This document shows, one piece after another, positions 2,996-20,322 of a DNA stretch of 64,000 nt. Both the position numbers and the translations under genes were made by a program. The notes under the pieces were generated by a model. That model was not told the DNA's origin. It saw nothing but the letters and a program-made list of their open reading frames with translations, and made no database searches. Location: NCBI RefSeq assembly GCF_008033235.1, contig NZ_CP042432.1:2790001-2854000 (forward strand). Direction: 5' to 3'. Positions within the stretch are counted from its first letter, which is position 1. Every line of letters begins with the position of its first letter. This stretch comes from Anseongella ginsenosidimutans. GTDB lineage: Bacteria > Bacteroidota > Bacteroidia > Sphingobacteriales > Sphingobacteriaceae.

Positions 2996-5320
2996 TTATA
3001 ATATGGGATCGTTATTTTTTACGATCCGGAGTTTTGCGAATTTAAGTAAAAGTTGCTTTTGTCCAGCATCTTTAAATAAAACTGTTGCCTTTGAATCGGG
3101 GAGGCGGCCTTCCAGTTTAACGATCGTCCCGAAGCCGAACTTTTCATGTTCCACTTCCATTCCTTCCCGGATAGCGGCCGGATCGTCCGCGGTGAAGTTA
3201 GCTGTGGGCACATGCTTCGTTGCAGGAACAGGTTTGGCAGGCGTATTGTTTGCTTTGGGCTTTGGCCGGGAAAATGAAAGGCGCTCACCAGCGCCCGCGC
3301 TGCCGGGGGAATTGTTCCATGCCTTCCGTTCATCGTCGAAGAAGGTATTATCCGGAGCAGCTGCCGGCGACCCTATATCCAGTTCAAGGTACTTTGGATC
3401 AACTTCATCAATGAAGCGGCTCTGCTCGCAGTGAATGAGCGATCCCCAGCGATAACGGGTAGTGGCGTAGGTGAGCGTAAGTTTTTTTTCCGCCCTTGTC
3501 GCCGCCACATAAAAAAGCCGGCGTTCCTCTTCCAGATCGGTGCGGGAATTGAGGGAAAGCTGGGATGGGAACAGGTTCTCTTCCATTCCCACCACATATA
3601 CATGCGGAAATTCGAGCCCCTTGGCGGCATGGATGGTCATCAGGGAAACCGTGTCGCTGTCGCCTTCCTTTTCCTCCACCTTATCATCGCCCGTTAACAG
3701 GGCAATGTCCTGAAGGTACTGGGTAAGGCTTTTATCTTCAATATCTTCTCTTTCGCTGAATTCCTTAATACCGTTGAGGAGTTCCTGTATATTCTCATAG
3801 CGGCTCAGCCCTTCTATGGATTTATCATTGTACAGGTCTTTCAGCAGGCCCGACTGGCTGGCAATATGATGCGCTACTTCGTAAGCATGTTGATTTTTCA
3901 GCATGGCGGCGAAGCTCTTGATCATGATCGCGAAATTCTGGATAGCCTCGCCGGAACGCCCGCCGATATATTGCTTGCTGTTTTCCACCACTTCCCACAG
4001 GGATTTATCCTGTTCATCGGCAGCCAACACCAGCTTATCCATACTGGTTTTGCCAATGCCCCGGACCGGGTAATTAATAATGCGTTTCAGCGCCTGCTCG
4101 TCATTGTGATTTACCGTGAGCCGGAAATAAGAAATAAGGTCACGGATCTCTTTTCGCTGGTAAAAGGAAAGCCCGCCGTAGATCTTATAAGGTATATTGA
4201 GTTTCCTCAGTGCCTCTTCCATAGCCCTTGACTGGGCATTGGTACGGTAGAGAATAGCAAAATCATTATAGTTCATTCCCCGGGAAGCCTGTTCCGCCAT
4301 AATAGATGCGGCAACCGTCTTTCCCTCTTCGTTATCGCTGTGTGTGCGGATGACCTTTATTTTCTCGCCTGCTTCATTTTCGGAAAAGATGACTTTTTCC
4401 AGCTGGTCGCGGTTATTGGCAATGATGCTATTGGCCGCGTTAACGATATTCTTGGTGGAGCGGTAATTCTGTTCGAGTTTGAAAACTTTCAGGTCGGGGT
4501 AATCCTTTTCGAAGTTCAGTATGTTCTGGATATTGGCTCCCCGGAAAGCATAGATACTTTGGGCATCGTCACCCACTACGCAGATATTCTGGTGTACGGC
4601 CGCCAGGCGCTTGACAATAAGATACTGGGAGAAATTGGTGTCCTGGTACTCGTCCACCATGATATAGCGGAACTTATGCTGGTATTTGTGCAGGGCTTCG
4701 GGGTGATCCCTGAAAAGCACATTGGTTTTGAACAGCAGGTCGTCAAAATCCATGGCCCCGGCTTTATAACAGCGCTTTACATACGTTTGATAGATCTCAC
4801 CCATGCGTTCGCGGCCGGAAGAAATATCGTCGGCCTGTATCTGGCTGCTTTCCATATATTCCTTGGCGGAGATCAGATTGTTCTTGGCCGAAGAGATCCG
4901 GGAATAGACAAAATTGGGATTGTACAGCTTATCATCGAGCATCAGCTCTTTGAGAATAGCCTTGATCAGGCTTTTACTGTCGTCCGTGTCATAAATGGTG
5001 AAATTGGCCGGGTAGCCGATCAGCTCGGCTTCTGAACGGAGTATGCGCGCGAAAATGGAATGGAACGTTCCCATCCACAGGTTGCGGGCTTCATCGCCGG
5101 TAACCGAGGTCACACGTTCCCGCATTTCCTTCGCCGCTTTATTGGTAAAGGTAAGCGCGAGAATGCGAAAAGCATCGACTCCTTTTTGCAATAAATGGGC
5201 AATACGGTAGGTAATCACCCTCGTTTTGCCGGAACCGGCACCTGCCACAATCATCATTGGCCCTTCGGTACTTTCAACTGCTGACCGCTGCGAAGGATTT
5301 AGTAACTCAAGGTAGTTCAA
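2996..5320 (-). CDS. pcrA: UvrD/PcrA-type ATP-dependent DNA helicase
   Basis: Superfamily 1A 3'-5' DNA helicase used in excision repair and in clearing replication forks. The Q-motif (LNPSQRSAV, residue 7 on), Walker A AGAGSGKT (26-33), motif II VDEYQDTN (221-228), motif III GDDAQSIYAFRG (249-260), QNYRST (motif IV) and TIHAAKGLEF (motif V) are all present. After a low-complexity linker the C-terminus carries the PcrA-type Tudor-like module (EVEHEKFGFGTIVKLEG). The 774-residue length is normal. The divergent neighbour is cydA. A strong promoter ends only a few bases before the start codon, so the message may be nearly leaderless. Confidence 0.95.
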   Translation of the reverse strand: MNYLELLNPSQRSAVESTEGPMMIVAGAGSGKTRVITYRIAHLLQKGVDAFRILALTFTNKAAKEMRERVTSVTGDEARNLWMGTFHSIFARILRSEAELIGYPANFTIYDTDDSKSLIKAILKELMLDDKLYNPNFVYSRISSAKNNLISAKEYMESSQIQADDISSGRERMGEIYQTYVKRCYKAGAMDFDDLLFKTNVLFRDHPEALHKYQHKFRYIMVDEYQDTNFSQYLIVKRLAAVHQNICVVGDDAQSIYAFRGANIQNILNFEKDYPDLKVFKLEQNYRSTKNIVNAANSIIANNRDQLEKVIFSENEAGEKIKVIRTHSDNEEGKTVAASIMAEQASRGMNYNDFAILYRTNAQSRAMEEALRKLNIPYKIYGGLSFYQRKEIRDLISYFRLTVNHNDEQALKRIINYPVRGIGKTSMDKLVLAADEQDKSLWEVVENSKQYIGGRSGEAIQNFAIMIKSFAAMLKNQHAYEVAHHIASQSGLLKDLYNDKSIEGLSRYENIQELLNGIKEFSEREDIEDKSLTQYLQDIALLTGDDKVEEKEGDSDTVSLMTIHAAKGLEFPHVYVVGMEENLFPSQLSLNSRTDLEEERRLFYVAATRAEKKLTLTYATTRYRWGSLIHCEQSRFIDEVDPKYLELDIGSPAAAPDNTFFDDERKAWNNSPGSAGAGERLSFSRPKPKANNTPAKPVPATKHVPTANFTADDPAAIREGMEVEHEKFGFGTIVKLEGRLPDSKATVLFKDAGQKQLLLKFAKLRIVKNNDPIL

Positions 5321-5327
5321 AACCTTT

Positions 5328-5359
5328 CAAAATTAAGACTCTTTCCCTAATTGTTCAAA
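5328..5359 (-). promoter_or_regulatory. Bacteroidota-type promoter of the helicase/DUF4290 operon
   Basis: On the minus strand TTTG (5359-5356), a 20-base spacer and TAATTTTG (5335-5328) match the -33/-7 consensus TTTG...TAnnTTTG. Expected transcription starts fall at about 5315-5323, on top of the ATG at 5320. Confidence 0.6.
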
Positions 5360-5449
5360 TAAAGTTGGAACTTCCGGGCGGGAAGGCCATCCCGGGCCTG
5401 GAATCGCCTGAAAGCTTCCCGCGAACCCGCTTTTACGGGAATTTAACCT

Positions 5450-5457
5450 TATCTTTG
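5450..5457 (+). promoter_or_regulatory. -7 element of the cydAB promoter
   Basis: TATCTTTG fits TAnnTTTG exactly and lies 26 bases before the cydA ATG, predicting a leader of about 20 bases. No good -33 element is visible at the expected distance. Confidence 0.5.
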
Positions 5458-5483
5458 CGCTGTTCATCAATCCCCTCGTGTAA

Positions 5484-6813
5484 ATGGACGATCTTATTGC
5501 CGCCCGCTCACAAATGGCGCTTTCGCTTGGTTTTCACATTGTCTTTGCCTGTATTGGAATGGTCATGCCCTTTTTTATGGCGCTGTCCCATTACCGATGG
5601 CTGCGAACGGGCAATCTTGTGTATAAAAACCTTACCAAAGCCTGGAGCAAAGGGGTGGCAATTTTCTTTGCTACCGGCGCGGTTTCGGGTACCGTGCTTT
5701 CCTTTGAACTGGGGCTTCTCTGGCCTCGTTTTATGGAACATGCCGGACCTATTTTCGGAATGCCTTTTTCGCTGGAAGGCACTGCTTTCTTTATTGAAGC
5801 GATCGCCCTCGGATTTTTCCTGTACGGCTGGGATAGGTTAAACCGCTGGTTTCACTGGTTTACAGGCGTGGTGGTGGGCCTCAGCGGGCTGGCTTCCGGG
5901 ATACTGGTGGTTGCTGCCAATGCCTGGATGAATAGCCCGGCGGGCTTTGACTACATTCCCCTGCGGCCCCGGGGAAGACGGACAGTACCTGAATATTGAT
6001 CCCATTGCCGCAATGTTTAATGACGCCTGGTTTTCGCAGGCCCTTCATATGACGCTGGCGGCTTTTGTTGCTACGGGCTTTGCCGTTGCCGGCGTTCATG
6101 CCTTAATGATCCTCAAGAAGAGAAACGTGGAATTCCATACCCGCGCCTTCCGGATAGCAGCGGTGTTTGGCGCGGTAGCGGCTATCCTGCAGCCGATAAG
6201 CGGCGATATTTCCGCAAAAGATGTAGCCCGGCGCCAGCCCGCCAAGTTTGCGGCTATGGAGGCACACTTCGAGACCAGCCGTTCGGCGCCCCTGGTGATA
6301 GGAGGGCTTCCTGACGAAGAACGCAAAGAATTGAAGTATGCCATTGAACTGCCCGGAATGCTTAGCTGGCTGGCCCACGGAGATAGCGAGGCAGAAGTAA
6401 CGGGCCTGGACCGTATTCCAGACGACGAGGAACCGCCGGTACTCATCACGCACCTGGCTTTCCAGGTCATGGTTGGGCTGGGCGTATTGCTGATGCTTAC
6501 GGGTTTGCTTTATTTAATTGCCGCCTGGAGAAAGCGGGAATGGCTAAATAAAAGATGGCTGCTGAAGCTCTTTGTCATTTCCATTCCTATGGGTTTCATT
6601 GCGATTGAAGCCGGCTGGACCGTCACGGAAGTAGGCCGGCAGCCCTGGATCATTTATGAGATCATGCGTACCGCCGATGCACTCACGCCCATGCCGGGAA
6701 TCGCTTATTCCTTCTATATTTTTACCGCCGTATACATTTCTTTGAGCATTGTGGTTGTGTTTCTCCTGTACCGGCAAATAAAAATGGTTCCCGAAATTTA
6801 TGATAAACCCTGA
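5484..6813 (+). CDS. cydA: Cytochrome bd ubiquinol oxidase subunit I, reading frame interrupted
   Basis: Subunit I of the membrane quinol oxidase that reduces O2 at low oxygen. The first part (5484-5999) carries the N-terminal haem-ligand His18 (SLGFHIVF); the second frame (from ~5947) carries FSQALHM with the haem b558 His, the EVGRQPW quinol-site motif and a C-terminal helix. It is the short-Q-loop form. The two parts are in different frames, joined near NSPAGFDYI and DGQYLNIDP. Removing the 19 bases 5958-5976 restores a smooth family-like sequence, GFDYIDGQYLNIDP; a single-base correction in CCCCGGGG (5967-5974) also restores frame but leaves extra residues. cydB starts 3 bases downstream. 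As read, the gene would not make a full subunit. Confidence 0.9.
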
Positions 6814-6815
6814 TC

Positions 6816-7817
6816 ATGCTGTACGTTGTGATTACTTTCCTGGCGCTCTCCATTATTCTATACTTTTTGCTGGGAGGAGCGGATTTTGGCGCAGGGATCA
6901 TTGAACTGTTTACCTCGCAAAAGAACCGGGGCCGCACCCGAAAGGCCCTGTACCGGGCTATCGGACCGGTTTGGGAGGCCAATCATATGTGGCTTATCAT
7001 CGCCATCGTGATCCTTTTTGTAGGTTTCCCGGTAATGTATACTACCATGTCCGTTTATCTTCACATTCCCCTGCTGATAATGCTCTTGGGTATTATTGCC
7101 CGCGGTACGGCCTTTGTTTTCCGGCATTACGATGCCGTGAAGGATGAAATGCAATGGCTTTACAACCGCATATTCGTTTATTCCAGTTTTATCACGCCGT
7201 TGTTTTTAGGCGTTCTGGCCGGGAGCCTTATTTCCGGAAGAATAAACCCGGATGCCGATAGTTTTGCCGGAGCATATATTGCCGGATGGCTTCATCCTTT
7301 TTCTTTTGCCGTCGGTTTTTTTACGGTGGCACTTTGCGGATTCCTCGCGGCTATTTACCTTATCGGCGAAGCGAACAACGCCGAAGACCGGCGGCGTTTT
7401 ATCATTAAAGCCCGGCATATGCTCATCGCCGCCTGGCTGCTGGGAGGTTTGGTTTTCCTTACCGCACGCCTGGAAGCTATTCCGCTCCAGGAGTGGGTAT
7501 TCGGCAATGTTCCCGGACTGACCGCCGTCATATTGGCCAGTCTTTCGCTGATCCTGCTTTGGTATTTGCTGCTCCGGGGAAAAACGCAGGTACTGCGCGT
7601 GCTTGCCGGTTTCCAGGTTTGCATGATTCTCTTCGCAGTGAGTTACGCCCACTTTCCCGACTTTATCATTATGCAGGGAGGGCTTACCCTTTCCCTGTTT
7701 GAACATTACTCCGCTCCGGCCATTCGCGGGCTGGGCTGGGCGCTGCTTTTGGGTAGTGTGCTGATCCTTCCCTTTCTCTTTTACCTTTTTTACAGTTTTC
7801 AAAAAAAGGAGGAATAG
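6816..7817 (+). CDS. cydB: Cytochrome bd ubiquinol oxidase subunit II
   Basis: Partner subunit of CydA. The 333-residue protein has about eight membrane segments and the typical N-terminus LGGADFGAGIIELF, followed by IGPVWEANHMWLI and a second half with WLHPFSFAVGFF. The length is normal and the frame is open throughout. It starts 3 bases after cydA and must be translated from the same message. A weak stem-loop (7819-7838, GCTGAC/GTCAGC) lies just after the stop, without a clear T-run. Confidence 0.95.
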   Translation: MLYVVITFLALSIILYFLLGGADFGAGIIELFTSQKNRGRTRKALYRAIGPVWEANHMWLIIAIVILFVGFPVMYTTMSVYLHIPLLIMLLGIIARGTAFVFRHYDAVKDEMQWLYNRIFVYSSFITPLFLGVLAGSLISGRINPDADSFAGAYIAGWLHPFSFAVGFFTVALCGFLAAIYLIGEANNAEDRRRFIIKARHMLIAAWLLGGLVFLTARLEAIPLQEWVFGNVPGLTAVILASLSLILLWYLLLRGKTQVLRVLAGFQVCMILFAVSYAHFPDFIIMQGGLTLSLFEHYSAPAIRGLGWALLLGSVLILPFLFYLFYSFQKKEE

Positions 7818-17199: not shown

Positions 17200-17538
17200 T
17201 TACTGAGTGCGTGGCCCAGCATAGATTTTTCCGTTGGTGTAATCAATCTGCGATTGATCCGGATCCAAATCCGCTTCGAGTTCGCTCAAGTCCGGTTGAC
17301 CGCCATCATCGGGCGCGGAAATACCGCATAGAGCGAGGTCATGGTCCTGGCAGTCGCTTGGAATTCCTTCTTGAGAATAATCACCAGGATCAGTAGGGTC
17401 AGTTCCTGTGAAGGTCCAGAATACGTCTGTTTGGTTCTGAGTTTGGATCCGATCAGTAGCTGCTGTTCCAACCAGCGCTACGAGTCCAAATAATACTGCC
17501 AGCATGGGCAGTGTAAAATTGATCTTCTTCATGATCAT
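17200..17538 (-). CDS. Small exported DUF6520-like protein with two cysteines
   Basis: 112 residues. MKKINFTLPMLAVLFGLVALVGTAAT is a signal peptide or N-terminal anchor of the type seen in DUF6520 family proteins of Bacteroidota (ATG at 17532 is equally likely). The mature part is acidic, rich in Asp/Gln/Pro/Gly, and has just two cysteines, Cys63 and Cys71 (DCQDHDLALC). No enzyme motif is visible. Its downstream position to the MauE/DoxX membrane protein on the same strand, 97 bases apart, is an association I recall for this family. A role as a small exported redox substrate is inference only. Confidence 0.65.
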   Translation of the reverse strand: MIMKKINFTLPMLAVLFGLVALVGTAATDRIQTQNQTDVFWTFTGTDPTDPGDYSQEGIPSDCQDHDLALCGISAPDDGGQPDLSELEADLDPDQSQIDYTNGKIYAGPRTQ

Positions 17539-17635: not shown

Positions 17636-18070
17636 TTAGCTGGTGTTCATTATTTTTTTGGATTTATTATGGAGGGGGAAAATCACCGCCAGGGTCAGGA
17701 TAAGCAAAAGTGAGTTAATCAGTAGATGCGCGCCCCAGCCCATGCTGCTGAAGATCCTCCCACAGGCGCAGGGCACATAGCCGAACGCTTCGGTGTATGC
17801 TAAAGCTGTGTAGACGGTAAAAGATAGCATTAGCGCCGCTGAGAGATGAAGGCCCGCCGTGCGGGTATGGGTGAAAAGGAGTAAGCCTGCCGCCGCCAAT
17901 TCAGCCAGCGGCAAGATCCATGTAAGTATCGAAATTGCCCAGTCGGGGAGGGGTTGCCGGGACAGTTGGATACGGAAGACATCGAATTCTATTATTTTCT
18001 GTCCGCCGGTGTAGAGGAACAATACAATCAGTATTGCAGAGATAATTTCTATCAGCTTTGGGGTTTTCAT
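17636..18070 (-). CDS. MauE/DoxX-family redox-associated membrane protein
   Basis: 144 residues with four predicted membrane helices (about 7-21, 43-66, 72-92, 113-135). It has the family N-terminus (FLYTGGQKIIEFDVFRIQL) and the conserved CAC-G motif, Cys101 and Cys103, after the third helix (YVPCACGRIFSSMGWG). MauE-type proteins pass electrons or disulfides across the membrane to periplasmic partners. It is upstream of the DUF6520-like peptide, and an exported thioredoxin opens the neighbouring operon, so the three may form one disulfide pathway. Confidence 0.8.
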   Translation of the reverse strand: MKTPKLIEIISAILIVLFLYTGGQKIIEFDVFRIQLSRQPLPDWAISILTWILPLAELAAAGLLLFTHTRTAGLHLSAALMLSFTVYTALAYTEAFGYVPCACGRIFSSMGWGAHLLINSLLLILTLAVIFPLHNKSKKIMNTS

Positions 18071-18321: not shown

Positions 18322-19263
18322 ATGAACACAGCTGCCCAAATGATCCATTATCCTTTTGAAAAGGGAATCAATCCTGAGATTAATTTTCTTCGCGAATGGG
18401 CCGGATTATGTATTCAGTGGCAGTATACTTGCTTATCCGCCGCTGACAGGAAGGTCGCACTGGAAACGAATTACGGCAATGTTGCGGCTTATTATTATCC
18501 AACGGCAAGCTTTAAAAAGGTTCTTCCTATTTGCAGATGGATGATTTATGTGGGGTGTTATGACGATACGTTCGGCACCAGGAGCAGGAATGTACTGGAG
18601 CGGGTGAACGCCCGTGTCAATCAAGTATACCGGGGAGAGAGGGCTCTTTCCTCAGATACGGGTTTGGAAGGAGAATTCCTCTGGCAGGTAGAAAGGATCA
18701 TGAAAGAATTCCGCCCTTTTTCCAGTACCGAATGGGAACAACGTTTTGCGGCAAATAATAAGTTATTCCTGGACGCCCTGGTGACTGCTACCGATTATAA
18801 CTACCGGGAGAAAGTCCGTTATCCGAGCCTCGAAGAATACCTGGCTATCCGTCAGAATATCGTAGCGGTTTACCCTTGTACGAATATGGCCGAGATCGTG
18901 GCTGATTTTATTCTTCCGCCGGAAGTGGAACAGCACCCGGTTATTAAACGTATTAATCAGCTCACGACGCTTTTGATGGCTTTTTGCAATGATTTCTTTT
19001 CGGTGGAGCGAGAGCGGAGAGATCATGAAGCCATGAACCTGATATTGGTGATAGAACATGAGCGGAATTGCTCTTTTACAGATGCCTGTGCGGCGGCAGC
19101 AAGTATTCACGATCGTTTTGTAAGTGAGTTTCAGAAATTGCGGTCTGATCTGCCCGATTTCGGAGAGTTGAATGCTTCATTGGAGCGCTATATTTCAACG
19201 CTGGAGTTAATGATCCATGGGAATTTATTATGGCATCTGGGAACTACGAGGCACCGTGTATGA
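18322..19263 (+). CDS. Class I terpene synthase (sesqui- or diterpene cyclase-like)
   Basis: Would cyclise a linear prenyl diphosphate after metal-assisted ionisation. The 313-residue protein from ATG 18322 shows the family landmarks at the right spacing: an aspartate pair D81-D82 in GCYDDTFG; the diphosphate-sensor Arg177 (EEYLAIRQN), exactly 46 residues before the NSE triad; and the NSE triad N223-D224..S227...E231 (CNDFFSVERE). The C-terminus GNLLWHLGTTRHRV matches the conserved end, with RH in place of the usual RY. The first motif lacks a third acidic residue (DDTFG rather than DDxxD). The frame could extend upstream to 18058, but that part lies in the repeat region and is unconserved. 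No prenyltransferase or P450 is adjacent, and the product cannot be predicted. Confidence 0.85.
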   Translation: MNTAAQMIHYPFEKGINPEINFLREWAGLCIQWQYTCLSAADRKVALETNYGNVAAYYYPTASFKKVLPICRWMIYVGCYDDTFGTRSRNVLERVNARVNQVYRGERALSSDTGLEGEFLWQVERIMKEFRPFSSTEWEQRFAANNKLFLDALVTATDYNYREKVRYPSLEEYLAIRQNIVAVYPCTNMAEIVADFILPPEVEQHPVIKRINQLTTLLMAFCNDFFSVERERRDHEAMNLILVIEHERNCSFTDACAAAASIHDRFVSEFQKLRSDLPDFGELNASLERYISTLELMIHGNLLWHLGTTRHRV

Positions 19264-19287: not shown

Positions 19288-20322
19288 TCATTCCCGCGCG
19301 GCGCGGCTGGGCGGATACCCGAAATACCTGGTAAAGGCTTGTGTGAAATTTGATGAGTTTTTGTATCCGGTCTTTGCTGCCACTTCTTTCACGGAATAGT
19401 TCTTCTGCAGCAGACTGAGGGCCATTTGCATCCGCTGTTCCTGGATAAGGCCGAAAACGGTTGTGCCGAAGAGTTGTTTGAAACCCGCTTCGAGCTTGGT
19501 TTTATTCATGCCCGCCGTTTGCTTGAGTTCATTCAGGCTGTAGGCATTTTCGGGGTGCTTAATGATGGTATCTCTTATTTGGTAAATTCGTTCTATTTCC
19601 AACGGGTTGAGCAATGTGTTGGAGCCTGAAAACTTGTCTGGTGCTGTTTCGCTTTTGATCATATCCCGGAGTACCTGAAAAATCAGATCTGTGACCTTGT
19701 TTTCGTAATAATCACGTCTGTTCACAGGTGTAACCGGGCCCCTGATAAGATCCGAAACGATATGCCTCATCTCGGTTGTCAGGCGACGATGAAAAGGATT
19801 TAAGAAAGTCAGTTTGCCCTTTTGTATGTTATCCAGGAATACAGTTAAAGCGGTTGAATTATACATGTTTTTCCATTCATCCATCTCAGGGTTGGTAAAT
19901 AATACATTAAAGGTTTCGTGTTCGCCAGGTTTCCGGAAGTTAATTTCCCATTCTATGTTTGGGAGGTGGCAGAGATTGTAATAATCACCGATGATCTGCT
20001 GCTCGGGTGCTTTATTAATGGAATAGCGAAGGGTGTTCTTCCATGCGACCCATAAGAAAGTACAAAGCTTGTCAGCTGTGACCCTTAGCTTTATTCTTTT
20101 TTCAATATAGAAACGGGTATGCCAAATGCTGCAGTTTGCCAGTTCGGTTACCCGAAAATGGAGTGCGCCGTATTCATCCATAGCGAGGACCATGTATTCG
20201 CTTTTTTGGTCTTCAATGATACGAGAATCGACCGGAACAGCGGTGGGGCTTCCGGCCGGAAAAATTTCCAAATTAAGGTCGCCGTAATGCATGACAAAAG
20301 TAGTTGTCTGTCCATTTTCCAT
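19288..20322 (-). CDS. AraC-family transcriptional regulator
   Basis: 344 residues. The C-terminal ~90 residues hold the two helix-turn-helix units of AraC proteins (SLNELKQTAGMNKTKLEAGF and SVKEVAAKTGYKNSSNFTQAF, ending FTRYFGYPPSRAARE). The N-terminal 240 residues are not a recognised sensor domain and lack membrane segments. It converges on the terpene synthase gene with a 24-base gap. It is the obvious candidate to bind the phased repeats upstream of that gene, but this is inference from position. Confidence 0.88.
   Translation of the reverse strand: MENGQTTTFVMHYGDLNLEIFPAGSPTAVPVDSRIIEDQKSEYMVLAMDEYGALHFRVTELANCSIWHTRFYIEKRIKLRVTADKLCTFLWVAWKNTLRYSINKAPEQQIIGDYYNLCHLPNIEWEINFRKPGEHETFNVLFTNPEMDEWKNMYNSTALTVFLDNIQKGKLTFLNPFHRRLTTEMRHIVSDLIRGPVTPVNRRDYYENKVTDLIFQVLRDMIKSETAPDKFSGSNTLLNPLEIERIYQIRDTIIKHPENAYSLNELKQTAGMNKTKLEAGFKQLFGTTVFGLIQEQRMQMALSLLQKNYSVKEVAAKTGYKNSSNFTQAFTRYFGYPPSRAARE

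Follow-up and report, generated by a model that had tools for sequence, protein, structure and literature searches.

Several bacterial terpene synthases are described as active although their metal-binding or C-terminal motifs depart from the usual form. In the available part of PMC8450962, the sestermobaraene synthase SmTS1 is active with the first motif NDLTV, and the N86D exchange, which restores the usual Asp, changed little. The accessible text of PMC10509563 describes the sesterviolene synthase StSS (DDFIV) and NbEIZS (DDHRN) as active despite their altered first motifs, and also ScHS, which carries RF in place of RY and is active at low yield; the ScHS branch with deviating motifs showed low or no activity, and its authors suggest pseudogenisation. 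For the Bacteroidota, the excerpt of PMC12723471 describes the motifs of Chitinophaga japonensis synthases as at times slightly modified, and that of PMC7192455 reports two Chryseobacterium enzymes giving unidentified diterpenes and one giving no product; diterpenes are the published product of many synthases of this phylum. Literature searches combining Anseongella with terpene found nothing, a query for bacterial terpene synthases of Sphingobacteriaceae found nothing relevant, and the papers that mention Anseongella ginsenosidimutans are, by their titles, unrelated to terpenes.

The gene studied here, from A. ginsenosidimutans, lies at 18322..19263 on the forward strand of the window, that is, of the whole stretch of 64,000 nucleotides that was analysed. 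It translates into 313 amino acids followed by a stop, and the coordinates and start given in an earlier sequence-only reading were correct. A longer in-frame reading frame from a TTG at 18058 was dropped, because the ortholog discussed below starts at the residue aligned to M1 of the 18322 ATG. The protein matches PF19086 (Terpene_syn_C_2) with an E-value of 9.8e-31 and 107.5 bits against a gathering cut-off of 23.7, which excludes a chance match, and no other PF19086 match occurs in the 4.32-Mb, one-contig genome. None of the NCBIfam equivalogs matched it at its own cut-off: the best, isoafricanol synthase (NF041624), gave 94.3 bits against 500, and the family 2 encapsulin cargo terpene cyclase (NF041167), which is also among the best, gave 85 bits against 400, so that the protein is a member of neither. 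In a sequence search of the PDB, two sesquiterpene synthases at about 25% identity ranked best, the 10-epi-cubebol synthase of Sorangium cellulosum (7zrn) and the (+)-T-muurolol synthase of Roseiflexus castenholzii (9hqi). Both resemble the window protein in fold, NSE triad, sensor Arg and overall length, but they differ from it in sequence (25-26% identity), in having the third acid of the first motif (DDVCE, DDQCD) and in ending with RY. An AlphaFold2 model built from two sequences (mean pLDDT 62, pTM 0.62) has the terpene synthase fold, and at this mean pLDDT its best structural match is 9hqi (Z 27.4, 281 residues aligned, rmsd 2.7) and its second the 10-epi-cubebol synthase (Z 25.8), the same top two as by sequence. 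The family match, the PDB sequence matches and the fold of the model thus bear out the claim that this is a true class I terpene synthase.

For the active site we used an alignment of 141 rows of Bacteroidota terpene synthases, a sample which is weighted toward the kin of the window protein, counts near-identical rows separately and took only part of the loci matched in the genome scans. Two weak PF19086 matches without the motifs (L082 and L083), the source of KE and SH values in the alignment, were excluded from counts and trees. The triad N223-D-F-F-S227-V-E-R-E231 (18988..19014, +) follows the consensus ND-x-x-S-x-x-(K/R)-E, and the pyrophosphate-sensor R177 (18850..18852, +; R in 129 of the 141 rows) stands exactly 46 residues before N223, as had been read from the sequence. 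The first metal motif, D81-D-T-F-G85 (18562..18576, +), opens with both Asp residues of the aspartate-rich motif, the second of which occurs in 141/141 rows. D81, N223, S227 and E231, which bind Mg2+ in solved relatives, are therefore all present, as are R177 and R310. Most of the anchor residues described in the available portion of PMC8450962 are also kept: P60 and V67 (21 and 14 residues before the first motif), E191 (14 after the sensor), N239 (8 after the triad; 19036..19038, +; N in 138/141 rows) and W304 (6 before the RY place; 19231..19233, +; W in 103/141 rows). At the place of the anchor Arg 34 residues before the sensor the protein has Ala143, with R141 two residues off.

Two deviations remain, and the first is that neither the fifth nor the sixth residue of DDTFGT is acidic, where DDxx(x)(D/E) has its third acid. 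Is this motif as odd as it had seemed? The absence itself is real, but its unusualness did not survive the comparison: an acid is absent from both places in 24 of the 141 rows, and of the residues aligned with G85, 114 are D or E and 16 are G. The third acid is usual for PF19086 members and not defining, and since these relatives also lack it and active members are in print, its loss does not remove the protein from the family. In a tree of 72 rows, obtained by taking out five long-branch rows (L030, L017, L068, L065 and L051) and rows of at least 70% identity (138 reduced to 72), the window protein falls inside a 12-row group (SH-aLRT 97) in which 10 rows lack the third acid. In a second tree of 46 rows with outgroups, for which another 32 rows, each from family f15, were removed, the 36 rows of Sphingobacteriaceae and of family f22 are monophyletic (100/100), and support for the 12-row group is good, not full (bootstrap 89, SH-aLRT 98). 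The rows which share this subclade with the window protein and its ortholog (L006, L025, L031, L012, L101-L105 and L130, from Sphingobacteriaceae and a genus of f22) mostly lack the third acid as well, but they are only 28-34% identical to the window protein and all have RY. We note that in three of them from f22 (L101, L102 and L103) the last Glu of the triad follows a Trp (W-E) where Lys or Arg is usual. The 10 rows without the third acid were also tried as an exclusive clade, and this grouping, which was named after inspection of the tree, was rejected (p-AU 0.007). The fewest-changes count for the third acid is 7 over the 72 rows, so its state changes often.

The second deviation is the pair R310-H311 (19249..19254, +), in which the Arg of the C-terminal RY is kept and the Tyr replaced. 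RY is usual for class I terpene synthases and not defining, because an active enzyme with RF is described in PMC10509563. Here the impression that the end is unusual was confirmed: the position of H311 is Y in 139 of the 141 rows and H in two, the window protein and its ortholog, with the His codon CAC in both species, and six actinobacterial or cyanobacterial plasmid proteins all have RY near the C-terminal end (6/6). On the aligned sequences, the RH pair is a genuine lineage-specific rarity. The orientation of H311 is not readable from the model, as residues 307-313 have a pLDDT below 50.

The surroundings of the gene were as poor in biosynthetic genes as had been claimed. Ten neighbouring proteins were scanned, of which nine had matches (SusC/SusD parts, thioredoxin-like, MauE, AraC, PorP/SprF and Ig/CHU_C proteins) and one had none, and no terpene or tailoring enzyme was found among the ten. 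No P450 was found genome-wide at E 1e-5; two prenyl diphosphate synthase genes lie elsewhere in the genome. The divergent neighbour encodes a MauE-like membrane protein (17639..18070, -; PF07291, E 4.6e-29), for which nothing points to a role in terpenes, and the convergent one an AraC-type protein (19288..20322, -; PF12833, E 7.5e-19), a possible, though unproved, regulator of the synthase. Both are kept at the ortholog locus (67% and 53% identical), and beside other members of the subclade no AraC or MauE homolog was found within about 1.5 kb per side (less for L130). The gene for a 112-residue protein with a signal-like start and no Pfam or NCBIfam match (17200-17538, -) adjoins the MauE-like gene, and by eye a similar protein seems to begin at the edge of the ortholog locus.

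That ortholog comes from a second Anseongella genome (G001, locus L001), the sole genus-mate with a PF19086 match, and is 65% identical across all 313 residues. Could the gene be a decaying synthase of weak or no activity, in which the RY Tyr and the third acid were lost as steps of degeneration? Both deviations lie within the diphosphate-binding network, no second pathway gene stands alongside the synthase, and pseudogenisation has been proposed for the deviating-motif branch in the excerpt of PMC10509563. The comparison of the two species makes this unlikely: the ortholog keeps DDTFGT, R177, the NSE triad and RH, so that both deviations and every metal ligand have been retained over 35% protein divergence, it has no stops, and the change in the first motif is spread through a subclade in two families. 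The loci share the order MauE-like, synthase, AraC-type, PorP/SprF and CHU_C protein, and the divergence of the synthase (pN 0.21) falls inside the range of its neighbours, close to that of MauE (0.21) and the CHU_C protein (0.19), below that of AraC (0.29) and above that of PorP (0.11). With pS at 0.83, synonymous divergence is saturated, and selection is visible only as low pN and conserved motifs. Within the limits of a two-genome comparison, the kept motifs, the lack of stops and a pN close to the neighbours' show that the gene is maintained and is not decaying.

It may also be asked whether the two substitutions jointly adapt active-site closure or diphosphate handling and so change the product, for instance through recapture of diphosphate or water to give an alcohol or an acyclic product. 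Both changes adjoin residues that surround the diphosphate in solved synthases, according to the available text of PMC8450962, and H311 is identical in both species. However, Gly is widespread without His (16 rows against 2), which uncouples Gly85 from H311, and the N86D result with SmTS1 also speaks against a joint adaptation. We regard such a joint adaptation as very improbable. The broader proposal, that H311 in the absence of the third acid alters the closure of the enzyme or its hold on diphosphate and leads to a new product or to an unusual diphosphate-retaining or water-trapping outcome, also seems to us doubtful.

Of 395 genomes sampled across the class, 2 had a PF19086 match, as did 13 of the 399 from the window's family and 35 of the 295 from family f15. 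A profile made from an alignment of seven relatives (A2) was positive in 3 genomes of a phylum-wide set of 395 and in 62 of 148 of one genus of f22 (g46), from which at most the best 30 matches, and 8 more, were taken as loci. Genomes of this genus (G1292, G1403, G1404, G1452 and others) have up to 15 terpene synthase matches each, several in tandem about 1 kb apart, a number which we find reminiscent of Chryseobacterium, where such enzymes are described in the excerpt of PMC7383580. Related synthases in two of them (L124 in G1404, L110 in G1452) look degenerate, with EDYYELC, a triad NSFASIEKK or NSFASIENK, and HY for RY. In f15, many of the PF19086 proteins (among L035-L049, L041 and L046 aside, and L054, L057 and L058) are about 515-577 residues long, with a long N-terminal part preceding the synthase domain. 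A scan of viral_contigs with the subclade alignment gave one locus at 21% identity, which was not used further. In a viral collection, L099 (IMGVR_UViG_3300043618_000036, 4842-7121) encodes a protein of 759 residues whose two halves both look like terpene synthases and, by eye, carry separate sets of metal motifs; we take it to resemble double-domain synthases, of which geosmin synthase is one.

The reading that we prefer, with a probability of about 0.83, is that the enzyme is active and acts as a stand-alone class I terpene synthase, a view that leans on conserved residues and on comparison with relatives. The two prenyl diphosphate synthase genes, as a supply of substrate, were counted in its favour; Ala143 and the branch of low or no activity in the available text of PMC10509563 were counted against it. 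D81 and the NSE triad would hold three Mg2+ ions and so bind the substrate, a prenyl diphosphate, by its diphosphate group. Ionisation of this substrate would give a carbocation that cyclises, yielding a hydrocarbon or alcohol which would be released without further oxidation. Gly85 would then be an inherited and tolerated variant of the subclade, and H311 would probably hydrogen-bond the diphosphate in place of the Tyr. By analogy, FPP may be a little more likely as the substrate than GGPP, since the nearest solved enzymes use it, though this is a weak guide in view of the many Bacteroidota synthases reported to make diterpenes. The likeliest picture is of a single enzyme that releases a volatile or membrane-soluble terpene, whose identity is not predictable.

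What does this mean for the family? By their published motifs, SmTS1, StSS, NbEIZS and ScHS are like the window protein in having a non-canonical first motif or, with RF, an altered RY pair, but they are actinobacterial. The product of the gene is a further member of a known synthase family, and one lineage-specific substitution in it deserves testing; new chemistry is unsupported by the present evidence, and the low identity of about 25-26%, which refers to solved synthases only, is no proof of a new product. The variant of the first motif is a mark of most of a Bacteroidota synthase subclade and is useless for singling out one gene as strange. We identified no characterised enzyme in this subclade, so an assay of one member might yield its first product. 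The RH pair, for its part, is a natural test of the need for the Tyr of the RY pair.
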